This document shows, piece by piece, positions 30,154-39,329 of a DNA stretch of 61,241 nucleotides. The stretch lies in the NCBI GenBank assembly GCA_030525985.1, contig JAUNDR010000001.1:30660-91900 (forward strand), written 5' to 3'. The stretch is from Slackia sp. (lineage in GTDB: Bacteria; Actinomycetota; Coriobacteriia; Coriobacteriales; Eggerthellaceae). Each line of letters starts with the position of its first letter. Position 1 is the first letter of the stretch. The notes beneath the pieces are model-generated. The model did no database searches, was not told the DNA's origin, and was given only the letters and a program-made list of their open reading frames with translations. The translations under genes were made by a program, and so were the position numbers.

Positions 30154-32787
30154 CTATGCGTACATGCCGTTGACCAGGCGCATGATCACGGCCGAAACCT
30201 CGGCGCGAGTGGCGCCGTCGGCGGGCGCGAGACGACCCGTGCCGTCGGCATGACCTGCAATCAGGCCCTCCGCCACCGCCCAGGCGACCGCCTCGCGGGC
30301 ATAGGGCAGCACCTCGTCCGCGTCGGAGAAGCCCGACAGATCGGCGCGGGCCGACGTGTCGAGGCCGAATGCCTCGGCGTAGCGCATCATGAACACCGCC
30401 ATCTGCTCGCGCGTCACCGCGTCGTCCCCGCCGAAGACCGAGCCGTCGCCGTAACCGTGCACGATTTTGTTCTCGACGCCCCACGACGCGGCGTCGGCGA
30501 ACCACTCGGAGCCCGTCACGTCGTCGAAGCCAAGATCCGCGAATGCCTCGGGCTCGGACTCGAGGCGGTGCAGCATGGTCACGAACATGGCGCGGGTGGC
30601 GCGGGCGTCGCCGTCGAAGCGCAGCGTCCCGTCGGCCTGGGGCACGCCCTCCAGGATGCCGCGGGCGGAGACGAAGTCGGCCGTGCCGTCCTCGCCGTAC
30701 CACGCGCCCGCCGTGTCGGGGAAGTCGGCCGAGGCGTCGACGACCTTCAGGCCAGCGTCGCCGGCAAGCGCCACCGCCACGCCGCCGTCGACGATGCCCG
30801 TCTTGGGCAGCGGGCGCCATGCGCCGTCGGCACCGCGAGCCATGACCACGACGCCTGCGGGCAGCTCGCCCTCGGGACCTTCGGCCACGGGCACGGTCAC
30901 CTTCACCGGGGCGCCCCCGGCCGCCTGCGCGGGGACCTTCACCTCGACGACGGGGGCCTCGGAGGCGTCGGCGGCGGGCTTTGAGGGTTCGACCGGCAGC
31001 ACGACCTCGCCGGATTCGGCGGCCTCCTTCGACACCGTGACCTCGACGGACTCCACGTTGCCCTCGGCGTCCTTCTCCACGACGGACTCGGTACCGTCCG
31101 CCGCCTCGGTGGTCACGGTCTGCGAGCCGTCGGGCCTGGTCTCGGTGGTCACGGTTGATCCGTCGGGCTTCTGCTCGATATCGACATCGGCATCAGGCTT
31201 CGACGGCGGAATCACAGGAGGAACGTACTTGGTCTCGACGGTATACACGGGAGGAACTGCCTGTTCGTCCACCGTCACAACAGCATCTTTGCCCAGGAAG
31301 CTGGTGCCCTGGCCTTCGGCGAGATTGTCTCCAGGATTGAAGCCGTGGAACGTACCGCCATTCACCGTGATAGTCGCATCGCCGGATTTATAATCATTGT
31401 CGCTGCAATTCAGCATGAAACGATAGTCTTTGCCGGTGGTACTCAATTGCCGAATCGAGAACTCTCCGCCATTGACGACCAAATCAGCCTTTCCATCAAG
31501 ATAGACGGCCGAGATATTACCCACAAATACGCCATCGTTAATCGTCAGCTTGGAACCGCCGCTAACGTCAAGGGCGTAGCAATCATTGGCCTTCGCTTTC
31601 ATCGTGCCGCCGCCGCTCACAACAAGCTCGGACCCGCCTCGAAGTGAAATGAGCGATACGTTCCTGCCCGCATAAATATTCTTTGTGTTCGTGATCGTTT
31701 TGCCATTCAAATCGAGCGCCAGCGATTTGCCGTCGACGATAACAATTTCGGTCAGCTCGATATCTTGGAGCAGTTTCACCGTGTCGCCGTCTCGAGCAAC
31801 CTTAACGGCGTCAGCAAGACTGGCGCAAAAAGCCGCAGATCCATCCGCCATCGCAAGCTCGACTTTTTCGCCAACGGGCGTCAGAACATTATTCGCCCAC
31901 TGATGTCCTTCAGGAGCCGCCAGCGATACGCCAGGCGCCTTGTCGACGGAAACCTTCTCGGCGCCGTGCGCGGCAACGAACTTCGCCTTAGAGAGATCGC
32001 CGCCGTTGATATGCAGCGAGAGCTTCGCATCGTTTCCAGAATAAAGCTCGATATTCCCCTCTATGACGCCCGCGTCTTCGGCGATGGTGACGTCGACGGC
32101 CTTGTAGTCCGCAAAACCGCATACGTCGAAGGCCGCCTGAGGACTCGCTTGGCCCGCAACGATGTTCGTGCCCTTTCCGATAACGACATTGCCATTGTTG
32201 TTGGACAGCGTATATTGCGTTTGGGCGCCGCCCGTCAAGTCGACGCCTTCGAGCGTGAGATTGCTGTAATTCTGAATGAGAATCTTGGCTTTATCGGAGG
32301 TTATGGCACCGTTCTTAATCACAATGTTGCTTCCCTGGAGAAGCTGGAATCCGTTCGTCTCGGTGCCCGCCGATCCGACGGTGCTTCCATCGATGGTATA
32401 GGTGAATCCGCCCAAATCGAACGTGAAATCGGTTCCGCTCTTCACAACCAGACCATTACCGGCGGCATTGTCGACAAGCCTGACAACGCTATCGGAAACC
32501 GTGCCGGCAGCAATGGCGTCGACGGCAGCCTGCAGACTATCGAACGACGTCTCACCGACCACGAACGGAGAGGCAGGCGCATCGGCGTCATAAGGCAATG
32601 AGCCGTCGGCCCCTTCCTGCGCCAGCATCTCGTCGACCACGTTGCCGCGCTCGTAGGCCTCCTGGCTTGCCGCCTGAGACGCGTCGGTATCGGCCGCGAA
32701 TGCCGCCGTCGGCACGCCGATTGCAGGAACCAATGCCGCAGAAAGCAGCACCGCCATGCCGCGGCCGGCTATTTTCTTCTGTTCCAT
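30154..32787 (-). CDS. S-layer homology (SLH) domain protein with beta-helix-like region
   Basis: 877 residues. Signal peptide MEQKKIAGRGMAVLLSAALV to about AAFA. Residues about 60-520 contain repeated beta-strand turns (GSNIVIKNGAITSDKAKILI, GGSKLTINDGVFVGNISAVY, KADLVVNGGEFSIRQL), typical of a right-handed parallel beta-helix. A Thr/Glu/Val-rich linker follows (SKPDADVDIEQKPDGSTVTT), then a beta-domain near 600-690. The last about 190 residues carry three SLH domains (DTAGAWYGEDGTADFVSARG; VTGSEWFADAASWGVENKIV; YAREAVAWAVAEGLIAGHAD), which bind pyruvylated wall polymers. The start at 32787 sits 6 bp after AAGGG. Base composition shifts sharply inside the gene (see findings). Confidence 0.85.
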   Translation of the reverse strand: MEQKKIAGRGMAVLLSAALVPAIGVPTAAFAADTDASQAASQEAYERGNVVDEMLAQEGADGSLPYDADAPASPFVVGETSFDSLQAAVDAIAAGTVSDSVVRLVDNAAGNGLVVKSGTDFTFDLGGFTYTIDGSTVGSAGTETNGFQLLQGSNIVIKNGAITSDKAKILIQNYSNLTLEGVDLTGGAQTQYTLSNNNGNVVIGKGTNIVAGQASPQAAFDVCGFADYKAVDVTIAEDAGVIEGNIELYSGNDAKLSLHINGGDLSKAKFVAAHGAEKVSVDKAPGVSLAAPEGHQWANNVLTPVGEKVELAMADGSAAFCASLADAVKVARDGDTVKLLQDIELTEIVIVDGKSLALDLNGKTITNTKNIYAGRNVSLISLRGGSELVVSGGGTMKAKANDCYALDVSGGSKLTINDGVFVGNISAVYLDGKADLVVNGGEFSIRQLSTTGKDYRFMLNCSDNDYKSGDATITVNGGTFHGFNPGDNLAEGQGTSFLGKDAVVTVDEQAVPPVYTVETKYVPPVIPPSKPDADVDIEQKPDGSTVTTETRPDGSQTVTTEAADGTESVVEKDAEGNVESVEVTVSKEAAESGEVVLPVEPSKPAADASEAPVVEVKVPAQAAGGAPVKVTVPVAEGPEGELPAGVVVMARGADGAWRPLPKTGIVDGGVAVALAGDAGLKVVDASADFPDTAGAWYGEDGTADFVSARGILEGVPQADGTLRFDGDARATRAMFVTMLHRLESEPEAFADLGFDDVTGSEWFADAASWGVENKIVHGYGDGSVFGGDDAVTREQMAVFMMRYAEAFGLDTSARADLSGFSDADEVLPYAREAVAWAVAEGLIAGHADGTGRLAPADGATRAEVSAVIMRLVNGMYA

Positions 32788-33164
32788 ATCCATCCCTTCC
32801 CCGGTACGGGAAAGGGCGGTCCGCCCGCAGGCAAACCGCCCCTCGTCTGTCGTTATATGAGCGGGAATTGTACACGCAACCCGCCCTCCGCGCAAAAGTC
32901 CACACGAAAGCACCAGGCGAAACGATGGACAACCTCCCCTTTCGACCTCCGCATTTTCGGGCAAGCGTTCGAAAATGCCTCCAGCAGGCATCGCCTTGCC
33001 GGCACGGAACCGAAAGCCCCGCCCTGCGCATTGCCGGGGGCATCGCGAAAGCCCTGTCGCCGATCGCATGCGCAGCCGCGGCGTACGCGTTCGCACCCGC
33101 TGGCGGCAAGGCGGCAACGGGCGCCGTCGACACGAAAACGTCCCGCTTGCCGCCGCTTACGCGA
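32788..33164. other. Upstream region of the SLH protein gene
   Basis: About 380 bp holding the SLH gene promoter and the 3' flank of the TSCPD gene. An open frame continues upstream of the chosen SLH start for 330 bp but is Arg/Cys-rich and not protein-like. No promoter could be fixed. Confidence 0.4.
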
Positions 33165-36004: not shown

Positions 36005-36211
36005 CTATGCCATCGCGGCTTCGTAGCCTTCTTCCACCACGGCGGCGACAAGCGTTTCATCGGGCACATCGGCGCCGAGCTGCACCACGGCGCGGCCGCC
36101 ATCCAAATCGACCTCGACGGCGCTTACGCCCTCGACGGCTTCAAGCGCCTTTTGCACATGCGCCACGCAACGAACGCACATCATTCCTTCGACCTTCAAC
36201 GTCTTTTCCAT
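36005..36211 (-). CDS. Possible separate CopZ-like chaperone from an internal start in copA
   Basis: The last 68 codons of copA begin with an ATG that has its own ribosome site (AAGGATTTCACG, 7-base spacing, in front of MEKTLKVEGMMCVRC). The product would be a complete 68-residue copper chaperone with the MxCxxC metal loop and the beta-alpha-beta-beta-alpha-beta length of CopZ. This recalls E. coli, where a frameshift in copA yields a free chaperone, but here the mechanism would be internal initiation. Both products may be made. This is inference from the signal alone. Confidence 0.5.
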   Translation of the reverse strand: MEKTLKVEGMMCVRCVAHVQKALEAVEGVSAVEVDLDGGRAVVQLGADVPDETLVAAVVEEGYEAAMA

Positions 36212-38731
36212 CGTGAAATCCTTTCCTTCGTTTTCGGAGTGCGCCGCAGCGCGCACATCCGACCCATCTTTATTCGAATCCTCCTGCGAAGCGCCCGTCG
36301 GCGATGCCTCGTTTCGATCGGCAGCGCGATCCGCGGACTCCCGCATCACGGCGACGGACGGCATCTCGATCGCGCGAAACTCCGACGCCGGCGCATCGCG
36401 CCGCATCTCGTCGGGTGCGCTCTGCGCGAAACGCGGACGCCAACCCCGCAGACGCAGCGCATTGCCCACCACGCAAACCGAGCTGAAGCTCATGGCGGCG
36501 GCGGCGATCATCGGATTTAAATCGATGCCCGCCCAAACAAGCGCGCCCGCCGCGACGGGAATGCATACCGCATTGTAGACAAGCGCCCAGAACAGATTCT
36601 GCTTGATCGTGCGCATGGTCGCACGCGAAAGCTGGATGGCCGCGGGCACATCGAGCAGGTCGCTGCGCATGAGCACCATATCGGCGGCATCCATGGCGAT
36701 ATCGGTTCCCGCCCCGATGGCGATGCCCACATCGGCGCGGGCGAGGGCGGGCGCATCGTTGATGCCGTCGCCCACCATGGCGACGGCGCCCGCTTCGCGA
36801 CCGATAAGCCGCGCCACCTCGCGCTCTTTTTCGGCGGGAAGCACTTCCGCCACCACGCGGCCGACACCGACCTCCTCTTGCACGGCGCGGGCGGTGCGCT
36901 CGTTATCGCCCGTCAGCATGACCGTCTCGATGCCCATGGCGGCCAATTCGGCAATAGCCGCGGCGCTCGTCGGCTTCACGGTGTCCGCCAAGGAAAGCAT
37001 TCCCGAAAGAACATCGCCGCAGGCGACGAACAACGGCGTCGCACCCGCCGAGGCGGCGGCTTCGGCGCGCTCGGCAAGCGGCGCAGCATCGATGCCGATC
37101 GACGCCATCAGCCGCGCATTGCCCACCGCGACGCGCACGCCCTCCACCGAAGCGACGATGCCCCCGCCTTCCTTCTGCAAAAAATCGCCCGCATGCCCGA
37201 CGGCGATGCCGCGCTCCTGCGCGCGCGAAACGATGGCACGCGCCAAAGGATGCTCCGAAAGGGATTCGGCCGTCGCGGCCATGCGCAGCAGCTCGTCGGC
37301 AGAAACCCCGGGCATGCAGACGGCCTCGGTCAAAGCGGGCTCGCCGCGCGTTATCGTGCCCGTCTTGTCGAGCACCACCGTCTTCACGCCATGGGCCGTC
37401 TGCAGCGCCTCCGCCGTCTTGGCCAGGATTCCCCTGCGCGCGCCGCAGCCCGTTGCCACCATGACGGCGGTCGGCGTCGCCAGACCGAGCGCGCACGGGC
37501 AGGAGATGACCAGGACCGAAACCGCATGCGAGAGCGCCGTGCCCACGCTCGCCCCCGCTGCGATCCATGCGACGAAAGCGACCAACGCTATAGCGATGAC
37601 GGCGGGAACGAATATGCCGCTGATCTTGTCGGCAAGCCGCTCGATGGGCGCTTTCGAGCCAGTCGCTTCGTCGACCATGCGCACGATGCCCGCGATCACC
37701 GTATCCTGGCCCACCTGCTCGGCGCGCACGGCGATCCAGCCCGATCGCACCGTGGTGGCGCCCGTGACGCGATCGCCCGAAGATTTTTCGACGGGAACGC
37801 TTTCGCCCGTGATGGCGGATTCGTCGATGCTCGCCGCGCCTTCGACAACCACCCCGTCCGCCGCGATCCTCATGCCCGTGCGCACGATAAGCGTATCGCC
37901 CACGCGCACGTCATCGGCGGAAACCTCGCGCTCGCCGTCCTTCGCGCGCACAACGGCGGTTTTCGGGGAAAGGTCGGCGAGGGCCGCCACGGCATCGGTC
38001 GTTTTCCCCTTCGCGCGCGCCTCGAAGTACTTCCCCAGCGTGATGAGCGTGAGGATCATCGCCGCCGATTCGAAATACAGATCCATCGCGGCGGCATGGG
38101 CGACGGCAAGCTGCCCTTGCGCATATGCCCCGCCGATCCGATATACGGCGACGATGCCGTATGCCGTCGATGCAGCCGAGCCAAGCGCGATGAGCGAATC
38201 CATATTGGGCGCGCCGCGGAAAAGGTTTCGAAATCCGTTCTTGAAATACGCCGCATTGACGAAAAGCACGGGAATGAGCAGCAGAAACTCCGTGAATGCC
38301 AGGGCGAATGCGCCGGCTTCGCCGCCGAAGAACCCGGGGAGCGGCCAGCCGAACATATGCCCCATGGACAGATAGAACAACGGCGCCGTGAACGCGATCG
38401 ATATCGCCAAACGCCTGCGCATGCGCTTTTTCTCGGCGGCGGCGCGCCCGAGGGAAGCGGAACCCTTGCCCGCGGCGCCTTGCGATGCGGCAGGGGACGC
38501 GGAGCTGGAACGCGGCACGGCAGAATAACCCGCCCGCTCGACGGCGGCGCAGACGGAAGCATTCGTGCGGGCGATGGCGTCTGAAGATTCGTCCGCATAC
38601 GTCACGTCCATGCTGTTCTTCAGCAGGTTCACTGCGACGTCTTTCACGCCCTCGACGCCTCGCGTCGCCTTGTCGACGCGCGCCGAACAGGCGGCGCAGG
38701 TCATGCCCGTTATATCGAAAGTCTGCTTCAT
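36005..38731 (-). CDS. copA: Copper-exporting P1B-type ATPase with C-terminal CopZ-like domain
   Basis: 908 residues. An N-terminal heavy-metal domain holds GMTCAACSARVD (Cys12, Cys15). About eight membrane helices carry the CPC metal site in ISCPCALGLATPTAVM. The cytoplasmic part has VVLDKTGTITRGEPAL (phosphorylated Asp), SEHPLARAI and MVGDGINDAPALA, all intact. After the last helices, a linker of about 80 residues leads to a second heavy-metal domain (GMMCVRCVAHVQ, Cys852/Cys855), an unusual C-terminal position. The pump expels Cu(I). It follows csoR by 164 bp on the same strand. RBS before the start at 38731 is weak. Confidence 0.94.
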   Translation of the reverse strand: MKQTFDITGMTCAACSARVDKATRGVEGVKDVAVNLLKNSMDVTYADESSDAIARTNASVCAAVERAGYSAVPRSSSASPAASQGAAGKGSASLGRAAAEKKRMRRRLAISIAFTAPLFYLSMGHMFGWPLPGFFGGEAGAFALAFTEFLLLIPVLFVNAAYFKNGFRNLFRGAPNMDSLIALGSAASTAYGIVAVYRIGGAYAQGQLAVAHAAAMDLYFESAAMILTLITLGKYFEARAKGKTTDAVAALADLSPKTAVVRAKDGEREVSADDVRVGDTLIVRTGMRIAADGVVVEGAASIDESAITGESVPVEKSSGDRVTGATTVRSGWIAVRAEQVGQDTVIAGIVRMVDEATGSKAPIERLADKISGIFVPAVIAIALVAFVAWIAAGASVGTALSHAVSVLVISCPCALGLATPTAVMVATGCGARRGILAKTAEALQTAHGVKTVVLDKTGTITRGEPALTEAVCMPGVSADELLRMAATAESLSEHPLARAIVSRAQERGIAVGHAGDFLQKEGGGIVASVEGVRVAVGNARLMASIGIDAAPLAERAEAAASAGATPLFVACGDVLSGMLSLADTVKPTSAAAIAELAAMGIETVMLTGDNERTARAVQEEVGVGRVVAEVLPAEKEREVARLIGREAGAVAMVGDGINDAPALARADVGIAIGAGTDIAMDAADMVLMRSDLLDVPAAIQLSRATMRTIKQNLFWALVYNAVCIPVAAGALVWAGIDLNPMIAAAAMSFSSVCVVGNALRLRGWRPRFAQSAPDEMRRDAPASEFRAIEMPSVAVMRESADRAADRNEASPTGASQEDSNKDGSDVRAAAHSENEGKDFTMEKTLKVEGMMCVRCVAHVQKALEAVEGVSAVEVDLDGGRAVVQLGADVPDETLVAAVVEEGYEAAMA

Positions 38732-38895
38732 CGTTCTCGTTCCGTTCGTCTCCGTTCGCCCGCCGCCGGCCTCGCCTTCCAGGCGATGGCGGGCGCAAAA
38801 CACAAGAGGTCTGTCACAGCGACGCATGGCAGGCGGCACAATGCTCCCGCATCACATCCGCAGGTCGCCGCAACACCGCGCGCCGACGCGGCGCG

Positions 38896-39264
38896 CTACA
38901 TGAACTTCTTTATCAGCTTCATGGCTTCATCCACCACGCCCACGTTGCCTTCGCGAATCTGCTCGACCACGCACGTTTCCATGTGGTCTTGCAAGATAAG
39001 CTCCGAAATGCGGCGCACCGCCGCTTCCGACGCGGCGAGCTGAGTGAGCACATCGCCACAATACCGGTTATCGTCGATCATCGATTTCACGCCATTGAGC
39101 TGGCCAATCACACGATTGAGGCGCTTTTGGATATCGGCACGAAGCGCCTCGCTGCGCTCGGTCTGCTTATGGCGGCACATGCAACACGCTTCGTCGGCGC
39201 AATCCTCCGACGAATCCGCGGAAAAGCTTTCCGCCTCCAATGCGCCTTTCGTCTTCTTCTCCAT
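38896..39264 (-). CDS. csoR: CsoR-family copper-sensing repressor
   Basis: 122 residues from the chosen start. The helical DUF156 core carries the Cu(I) triad Cys69 (NRYCGDV), His94 and Cys98 (LQDHMETC). The family fold begins at ADIQKRLNRVIGQLNGVKSM. The protein releases DNA on binding Cu(I), derepressing copA. Upstream of the core sits an additional cysteine-rich stretch (Cys22, 27, 28, 30: DCADEACCMCRHK). The start MEKKTKG at 39264 follows AAGAAGGATTCC; a further ATG at 39291 lies closer to the operator and is less likely. Confidence 0.92.
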   Translation of the reverse strand: MEKKTKGALEAESFSADSSEDCADEACCMCRHKQTERSEALRADIQKRLNRVIGQLNGVKSMIDDNRYCGDVLTQLAASEAAVRRISELILQDHMETCVVEQIREGNVGVVDEAMKLIKKFM

Positions 39265-39297
39265 GGAATCCTTCTTCGATTCGTATCCCATAAATCC

Positions 39298-39320
39298 AAT
39301 ATACCCCCATGGGGCATATT
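39298..39320. promoter_or_regulatory. CsoR operator
   Basis: AATATACCCCCATGGGGCATATT is written here as AATATACCCCC-ATGGGG-CATATT: a near-perfect GC-core palindrome with A/T flanks, the standard CsoR site layout (TACCCC...GGGGTA). It sits 33 bp before the csoR start and just downstream of the -10 hexamer at 39324-39329, covering the likely transcription start, so bound CsoR would block the csoR-copA promoter. Confidence 0.85.
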
Positions 39321-39323
39321 GCG

Positions 39324-39329
39324 ATTATA
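39324..39329 (-). promoter_or_regulatory. Minus-10 element of the csoR promoter
   Basis: A perfect TATAAT on the minus strand next to the CsoR operator. The matching -35 position (TTTCCG, 17 bp away) is poor, as is usual for a repressed metal-response promoter. Confidence 0.6.

Follow-up and report, generated by a model that had tools for sequence, protein, structure and literature searches.

In-frame internal initiation that frees the C-terminal domain of a longer protein is a known kind of event, as exemplified by arcB of Escherichia coli. In the ordinary form of copper-export unit, such as that of Collinsella aerofaciens, a separate copZ lies behind copA. E. coli copA was described as giving both the pump and a free chaperone, CopA(Z), by programmed ribosomal frameshifting (Meydan 2017; Drees 2017; both related in PMC7558416 and PMC10187127), and the CopA of Archaeoglobus fulgidus is a Cu(I)-ATPase that carries a metal-binding domain at its C terminus (Agarwal 2010, in PMC7558416). 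Here we analyzed a stretch of 61,241 nucleotides from Slackia sp., hereafter the window, in which the copA locus has the same parts in the same order as the ordinary copA-copZ arrangement, including a ribosome site before copZ, but in which the intervening stop codon is absent and copZ is nested within copA.

Anatomy of the copA Locus

The features of the locus are collected in Table 1. The gene forms one open frame on the minus strand, reaching from a first possible GTG at 38839 to the stop at 36005, and the ATG at 38731 is likely the real start of copA, the GTG being the mechanical limit of the frame. The translation carries the Cu-ATPase motifs SCPCAL and DKTGT and reaches 552 bits against TIGR01511 (cut-off 397), thus fulfilling membership of the P1B-1 Cu(I)-ATPases. 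A metal-binding (HMA) domain is found at both the N-terminal and the C-terminal end of the pump. The first-pass annotation had placed the chaperone-like domain at the C terminus instead of the usual N terminus; the C-terminal domain is real, but the usual N-terminal HMA domain with its MTCAAC motif is present as well, and the C-terminal domain is therefore an addition to the usual one and not its replacement.

Table 1. Features of the copA locus and its regulatory region, in window positions.
Feature	Position	Strand	Basis
copA, Cu(I)-exporting P1B-type ATPase, 908 aa	36005..38731	minus	TIGR01511 and translation
N-terminal HMA metal-binding domain, FDITGMTCAAC	38525..38722	minus	Pfam HMA (G000:C56:69184-69381)
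Linker from last transmembrane segment to C-terminal domain	36212..36448	minus	Relatives: poorly conserved except for the last codons
Internal Shine-Dalgarno GAAAGGA, 7 nt before internal ATG	36219..36225	minus	Sequence; duplex energy -10.1 kcal/mol; conservation
Nested copZ, in-frame ATG (36211-36209) to shared stop; predicted free 68-aa chaperone equal to the CopA C-terminal domain	36005..36211	minus	Pfam HMA, phmmer, AlphaFold2
CsoR/RicR-family copper-sensing repressor gene, immediately upstream of copA	38896..39291	minus	RicR match
CsoR-operator-like palindrome ATATGCCCCATGGGGGTATAT	39299..39319	minus	Sequence

The last 68 codons of copA (36211-36008) translate as MEKTLKVEGMMCVRC...YEAAMA. 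This stretch covers the Pfam HMA profile (PF00403) from position 1 to 62 of 62 with 58.7 bits (cut-off 24.8), carries a metal site of the MxCxxC type (MMCVRC), and was modeled by AlphaFold2 as a complete beta-alpha-beta-beta-alpha-beta fold from residue 2 with a mean pLDDT of 95.7, bearing out the in-frame C-terminal CopZ domain that had been proposed for CopA. Comparison by phmmer with the solved CopZ of B. subtilis (1k0v/2qif) gave 5e-10. The predicted 68-residue product meets the tests of size, HMA fold and MxCxxC site for a CopZ/Atx1 protein, and its free, soluble, Cu(I)-binding form is inferred from the internal start and the metal site. Since the domain did not pass a curated CopZ equivalog model (best NF047957, 70.7 bits, cut-off 85), we label it CopZ-type and do not name it an equivalog. 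This anatomy of the fused gene is held with high confidence.

An HMA profile search of the assembled own genome (G000, 96% complete) found only three HMA stretches over threshold, namely the two in CopA and one of zinc/cadmium type (IDCANC). As no further CopZ-type gene was found by this search, the nested frame would be the sole source of free CopZ in the assembled genome. The zinc/cadmium-type protein, a 72-aa DCANC-type HMA protein on contig C89 (L003), is grouped with an ArsR-like regulator and a second heavy-metal ATPase; small DCANC proteins recur in many of the scanned genomes and are perhaps zinc/cadmium chaperones.

Directly before the internal ATG at 36211 stands GAAGGAAAGGATTTCACG, within which GAAAGGA matches the canonical Shine-Dalgarno (SD) sequence perfectly over 7 nt. 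In the 120-kb contig holding the window, only three out of 514 internal in-frame ATGs, ATG 36211 among them, are as good, that is, have a perfect SD match of at least 7 nt at a spacing of 5-9 nt with a duplex energy of -10.1 kcal/mol or lower. A search of the assembly for the 16S 3' end by its tail pattern gave no match, and the canonical anti-SD was assumed for the SD energies. Within the window copA, the SD at the internal start reaches -10.1 kcal/mol as compared to -5.8 kcal/mol at the pump's own start, and of the 82 glycine codons of the gene six are GGA, one of these lying within the SD. No slippery heptamer of the E. coli type, which has a -1 stop close by, was found after the N-terminal domain; the only two in-frame heptamers lie far off, at codons 515 and 736.

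The unit sits directly behind the gene of a CsoR-type repressor, and copper would thus be expected to induce both products. The best match of the repressor was RicR with 58.9 bits, below the curated cut-off of 175. A TATAAT (39324-39329), with the palindrome ATATGCCCCATGGGGGTATAT just downstream of it, precedes the repressor gene; the palindrome is beyond chance expectation and resembles a CsoR operator. Since the longest open reading frame of the repressor would start only 7 nt after the palindrome, the ATG at 39264, which has AAGAAGGA, is the likelier start. Elsewhere in the window, positions 30154-33117 (minus strand) encode a large surface-type protein; when its translation is read by eye, the C-terminal part looks like S-layer-homology repeats.

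Fused copA Genes in Other Genomes

In total, 199 distinct fused copA genes were gathered from Eggerthellaceae, Atopobiaceae, Clostridia, Erysipelotrichaceae, Spirochaetota and Synergistota. A strong SD and an in-frame ATG or GTG just before the domain are kept in 193 of them (~97%), whereas the same criterion is met at 8.6% of random positions in those genes and at 5.4% of linker positions, so that the internal start signal with its own ribosome site, first noticed in this gene, is seen in its relatives too. The counted genes are related and do not represent 199 independent events. In a first set, mostly from Eggerthellaceae, an ATG combined with a strong SD stands exactly 8 codons ahead of GMMC in 62 of 64 fused genes, and in family f4 (Atopobiaceae, by its named members) the start is likewise found 8 or 9 codons before the motif. 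A scan of GTDB genomes brought fused genes in Lachnospiraceae, Oscillospiraceae, other Clostridia, Erysipelotrichaceae, Treponema and other Spirochaetota, and Pyramidobacter (Synergistota), nearly all of them with the start and frequently with AAAGGAGG. Before the draw described below was added, the set comprised 158 distinct fused genes, 155 of which have an in-frame start 7-12 codons before GMxCxxC, with the ATG exactly 8 codons before it in 129.

Because the GTDB scan ordered its matches by similarity, it was repeated on 196 genomes drawn evenly from the class to which one Lachnospiraceae genome belongs (Clostridia). The probe, a CopZ-like sequence modeled on Lachnospiraceae examples and identical to no single locus, served for locus finding only. 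The start was present in 49 of the 51 readable fused genes, and four pumps without the domain were followed by a separate copZ with its metal motif 46-184 nt after the stop; fused genes were far more numerous than separate neighboring copZ genes. If shuffled, about 44 of 193 linkers would remain open, and most linkers contain stops in the other frames, but since the genes had been selected for being fused, such open-linker counts carry little weight as a sign that the fusion is under selection. The predominance of fused genes in the even Clostridia draw is a better hint, and we infer that the fused CopZ copy is probably useful to the pump.

The first-pass annotation had named, as a finding that would refute it, a sequencing error that removed a stop codon between copA and copZ. 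Nothing was found in favor of this artefact. The same in-frame fusion recurs in about 200 genes that were sequenced separately, in numerous isolates as well as metagenome assemblies and with complete records included, which rules out the artefact and leaves it with a practically negligible probability.

Two fused-gene records, those of Ruminococcus albus 7 (RUMAL_RS18915) and Roseburia sp. 831b (BIV16_RS15235), were checked for their annotation; both contain a repressor-copA pair in which the fused gene is annotated as a single ATPase and the nested chaperone is not annotated. Eggerthella sinensis and Gordonibacter pamelaeae are also among the cultured carriers. The copA of locus L090, from a genome of the same genus (G011), sits among Lachnospiraceae on the pump tree, which suggests that the fused gene was transferred horizontally or that the sequence is a contaminant. 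In several Eggerthellaceae and related genomes (L025, L029, L094, L095, L097, and L098), a copA without the C-terminal domain is followed by a separate HMA gene, with the metal motif 49-83 nt past the copA stop and a distinct N-terminus (MSLFSKKETVxLxVxGMHC), which perhaps represents an independent chaperone lineage.

Selection on the Internal Start Signal

The mean SD duplex energy at the internal starts was -11.2 kcal/mol as compared to -4.6 kcal/mol at 2929 other in-frame ATGs. Energies of -9 kcal/mol or lower were reached by 97% of the internal starts and by 7% of the other in-frame ATGs, with a sharp peak at the start, and over 86 genes the SD of the internal start was also stronger on average than that of the pump's own start (means of -11.2 and -9.8). 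RNA folding of the 45 nt around the internal start amounted to -2.6 kcal/mol, as opposed to -11.9 kcal/mol at other ATGs. The tests for an in-frame internal start, namely SD spacing, an in-frame start codon, low structure and conservation, were thus all met.

The linker preceding the domain ranges from 11 to 135 codons (median 39) and is nearly unalignable, its identity being 30% as compared to 23% with shuffled partners, whereas the C-terminal domain is 54% identical and the SD, the box-to-ATG spacing and the ATG hardly vary. As the purine-rich box lies about 40 codons past the last transmembrane segment (median linker), it might instead slow the ribosome so that the last membrane segments are inserted first, the ATG being incidental. 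Such pausing would need no ATG at a fixed spacing, yet one is kept; the box-to-ATG spacing is near constant while the distance to the membrane segment varies with the linker, and the start is absent in several genomes with a separate copZ. We give this explanation very little credence.

Codon usage bears on whether the signal is kept for its protein or for its nucleotide sequence. When synonymous codons were resampled from the same gene with the protein fixed, an SD energy of -8.3 kcal/mol was expected, and -11.3 kcal/mol was observed (Wilcoxon p 7e-24). Within the SD box, AGA/AGG account for 84% of the Arg codons as compared to 17% elsewhere, and GGA for 85% of the Gly codons as compared to 16% elsewhere. 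Positions -3 to -5 are mostly occupied by K, E, R, and G, and the charged Lys/Glu/Arg box could in principle be a linker or protease site that is SD-like by chance. However, the codons shift strongly toward the SD at fixed protein, and the residue exchanges are only those that keep AAGGAG-like DNA; a constraint at the protein level, ruled out by the synonymous null, is hardly tenable.

Losses of the Internal Start and Separate copZ Genes

In a quick maximum-likelihood tree built from 156 rows of pump cores, start-bearing fused genes occur across both main halves, and the losses of the start are isolated, scattered tips. Among the tree rows labeled noCTD, L119 and L208 were scored by pattern, while L271 and L295 proved on re-reading to carry both the domain and the start. 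This distribution also concerns the possibility that the SD and ATG are left over from a once separate copZ whose upstream stop was lost, and that no translation starts there now. An obvious ancestor for such a fusion does exist, since domain-less pumps often carry a separate copZ close behind copA. A mere remnant would not, however, be expected to persist with SD and start in 193 of 199 genes despite linkers diverged nearly to randomness, nor with synonymous codons that favor the SD and with losses that are few and at the tips. The conservation, codon and tree tests together rule out a relic in our judgment, and both a relic and a sequencing error are regarded as very unlikely.

We looked at seven genes in which the start is lost or weak. 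The genomes of four of these (G009, G330, G432, and G404) contain a separate CopZ-type gene that has a ribosome site of its own, located 38 nt behind the pump in G009 and in the same neighborhood in G330. The genomes G096 and G073 have separate HMA proteins of subfamilies that are also seen beside intact internal starts (e.g., G031, G113, G114, G101, G516, and G325), and in G322, where the ATG has a weak SD and stands 14 codons ahead of the motif, nothing beyond a zinc-type protein was found, a further gene of CopZ type being absent. A clean rule by which every genome without the start has a free copZ was therefore rejected; four cases fit, G096 and G073 are ambiguous and G322 fails, and compensation of a lost start by a separate copZ is suggestive only. 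Among the start-bearing genomes that were fully scanned, G000, G005, G006, G074, G323, G324, G326, G327, G328, and G512 showed only the two CopA HMA domains, with or without a zinc/cadmium-type DCANC protein, and such genomes thus often lack any other CopZ-type gene.

A comparison with relatives that have copZ as a separate gene behind copA had been put forward as a check; several of the start-losing genes belong to genomes with a separate copZ. In summary, sequence comparison shows the internal start signal to be conserved and, as judged from its codons, under selection at the nucleotide level, and to be lost in several genes with a separate copZ in the genome.

Discussion

We consider it highly probable that one gene here specifies both the pump and, by internal initiation, a free chaperone of 68 residues, although this rests on sequence and translation has not been observed. 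Ribosomes starting from 38731 would produce the complete Cu(I) pump CopA, with metal-binding domains at both ends, and other ribosomes would load at the internal GAAAGGA and begin at ATG 36211 in the same frame, yielding a free CopZ-type chaperone identical to the C-terminal domain of the pump. The free CopZ would shuttle Cu(I) to the pump, and the fused copy would also act within it; all three points are inferred, namely that the small protein is made, that it supplies the pump with Cu(I) and that the fused copy works there. The suggestion that one gene provides pump and free chaperone is strongly supported, on comparison, by the fixed position of the ATG, the conserved SD in a poorly conserved linker, the rare SD-forming codons and the unstructured site, but it remains an inference without detection of a 7-kDa product. 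An SD and ATG within a translated gene need not be efficient, and no translation data are available. Since the internal SD exceeds that of the pump start in mean strength, an excess of chaperone would be expected.

A free chaperone could also come from a separate short transcript, initiated at a promoter inside copA, and not from the long mRNA. For E. coli copA, differential transcript formation has been reported in addition (title of Drees et al. 2017, cited in PMC7558416). In a weak scan no sigma-70-like promoter was found in the region, and a short transcript would alter the transcript but not the internal start codon. We consider this unlikely, and it is not excluded.

Beyond the single genome, it seems probable that many gut Clostridia, Eggerthellaceae and Atopobiaceae have copA with a nested copZ as their standard copper-export unit, which is also exemplified in Spirochaetota and Synergistota, and that this unit represents an overlooked second route to a free chaperone from a pump gene, in which the internal start is usually stronger than that of the pump, giving chaperone in excess, and in which the fused copy is kept as a working domain of the pump. 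If this is true, bacterial lineages have independently found different ways for the pump gene to yield a free copper chaperone, from opposite ends of the protein, and many gut bacteria seemingly without CopZ have one that annotation has missed. It would further predict a testable pump-to-chaperone ratio and provide a clear natural example of an in-frame gene nested in another and kept over several phyla, and its signature, an SD and ATG kept in an otherwise unconserved linker, could reveal other such genes.

The arrangement resembles that of E. coli arcB in having an SD and ATG inside a longer gene, with shared frame and stop, and differs from it in that a metal pump and its chaperone are concerned and in its conservation over several phyla. 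As described for E. coli copA, one copper-pump gene would give the pump and a free CopZ-type copy of one of its own metal-binding domains; in E. coli the N-terminal domain is freed by a frameshift and an early stop, whereas here it would be the C-terminal domain, by in-frame internal initiation. The first-pass annotation had suggested that this would be a solution independent of that of E. coli and at the other end of the protein; the solution is not private to this genome and is instead widespread. The CopA of Archaeoglobus fulgidus shares the extra C-terminal HMA domain, whereas its CopZ is described in PMC7558416 as a separate protein fused to an iron-sulfur domain. Our literature search, which did not cover many subscription journals, found no paper on CopZ made by internal initiation or joining internal initiation to pump and chaperone genes. 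In conclusion, within the literature covered, a pump and a chaperone from one gene are already known, as is internal initiation, while their combination, as inferred for this locus, appears to be new.
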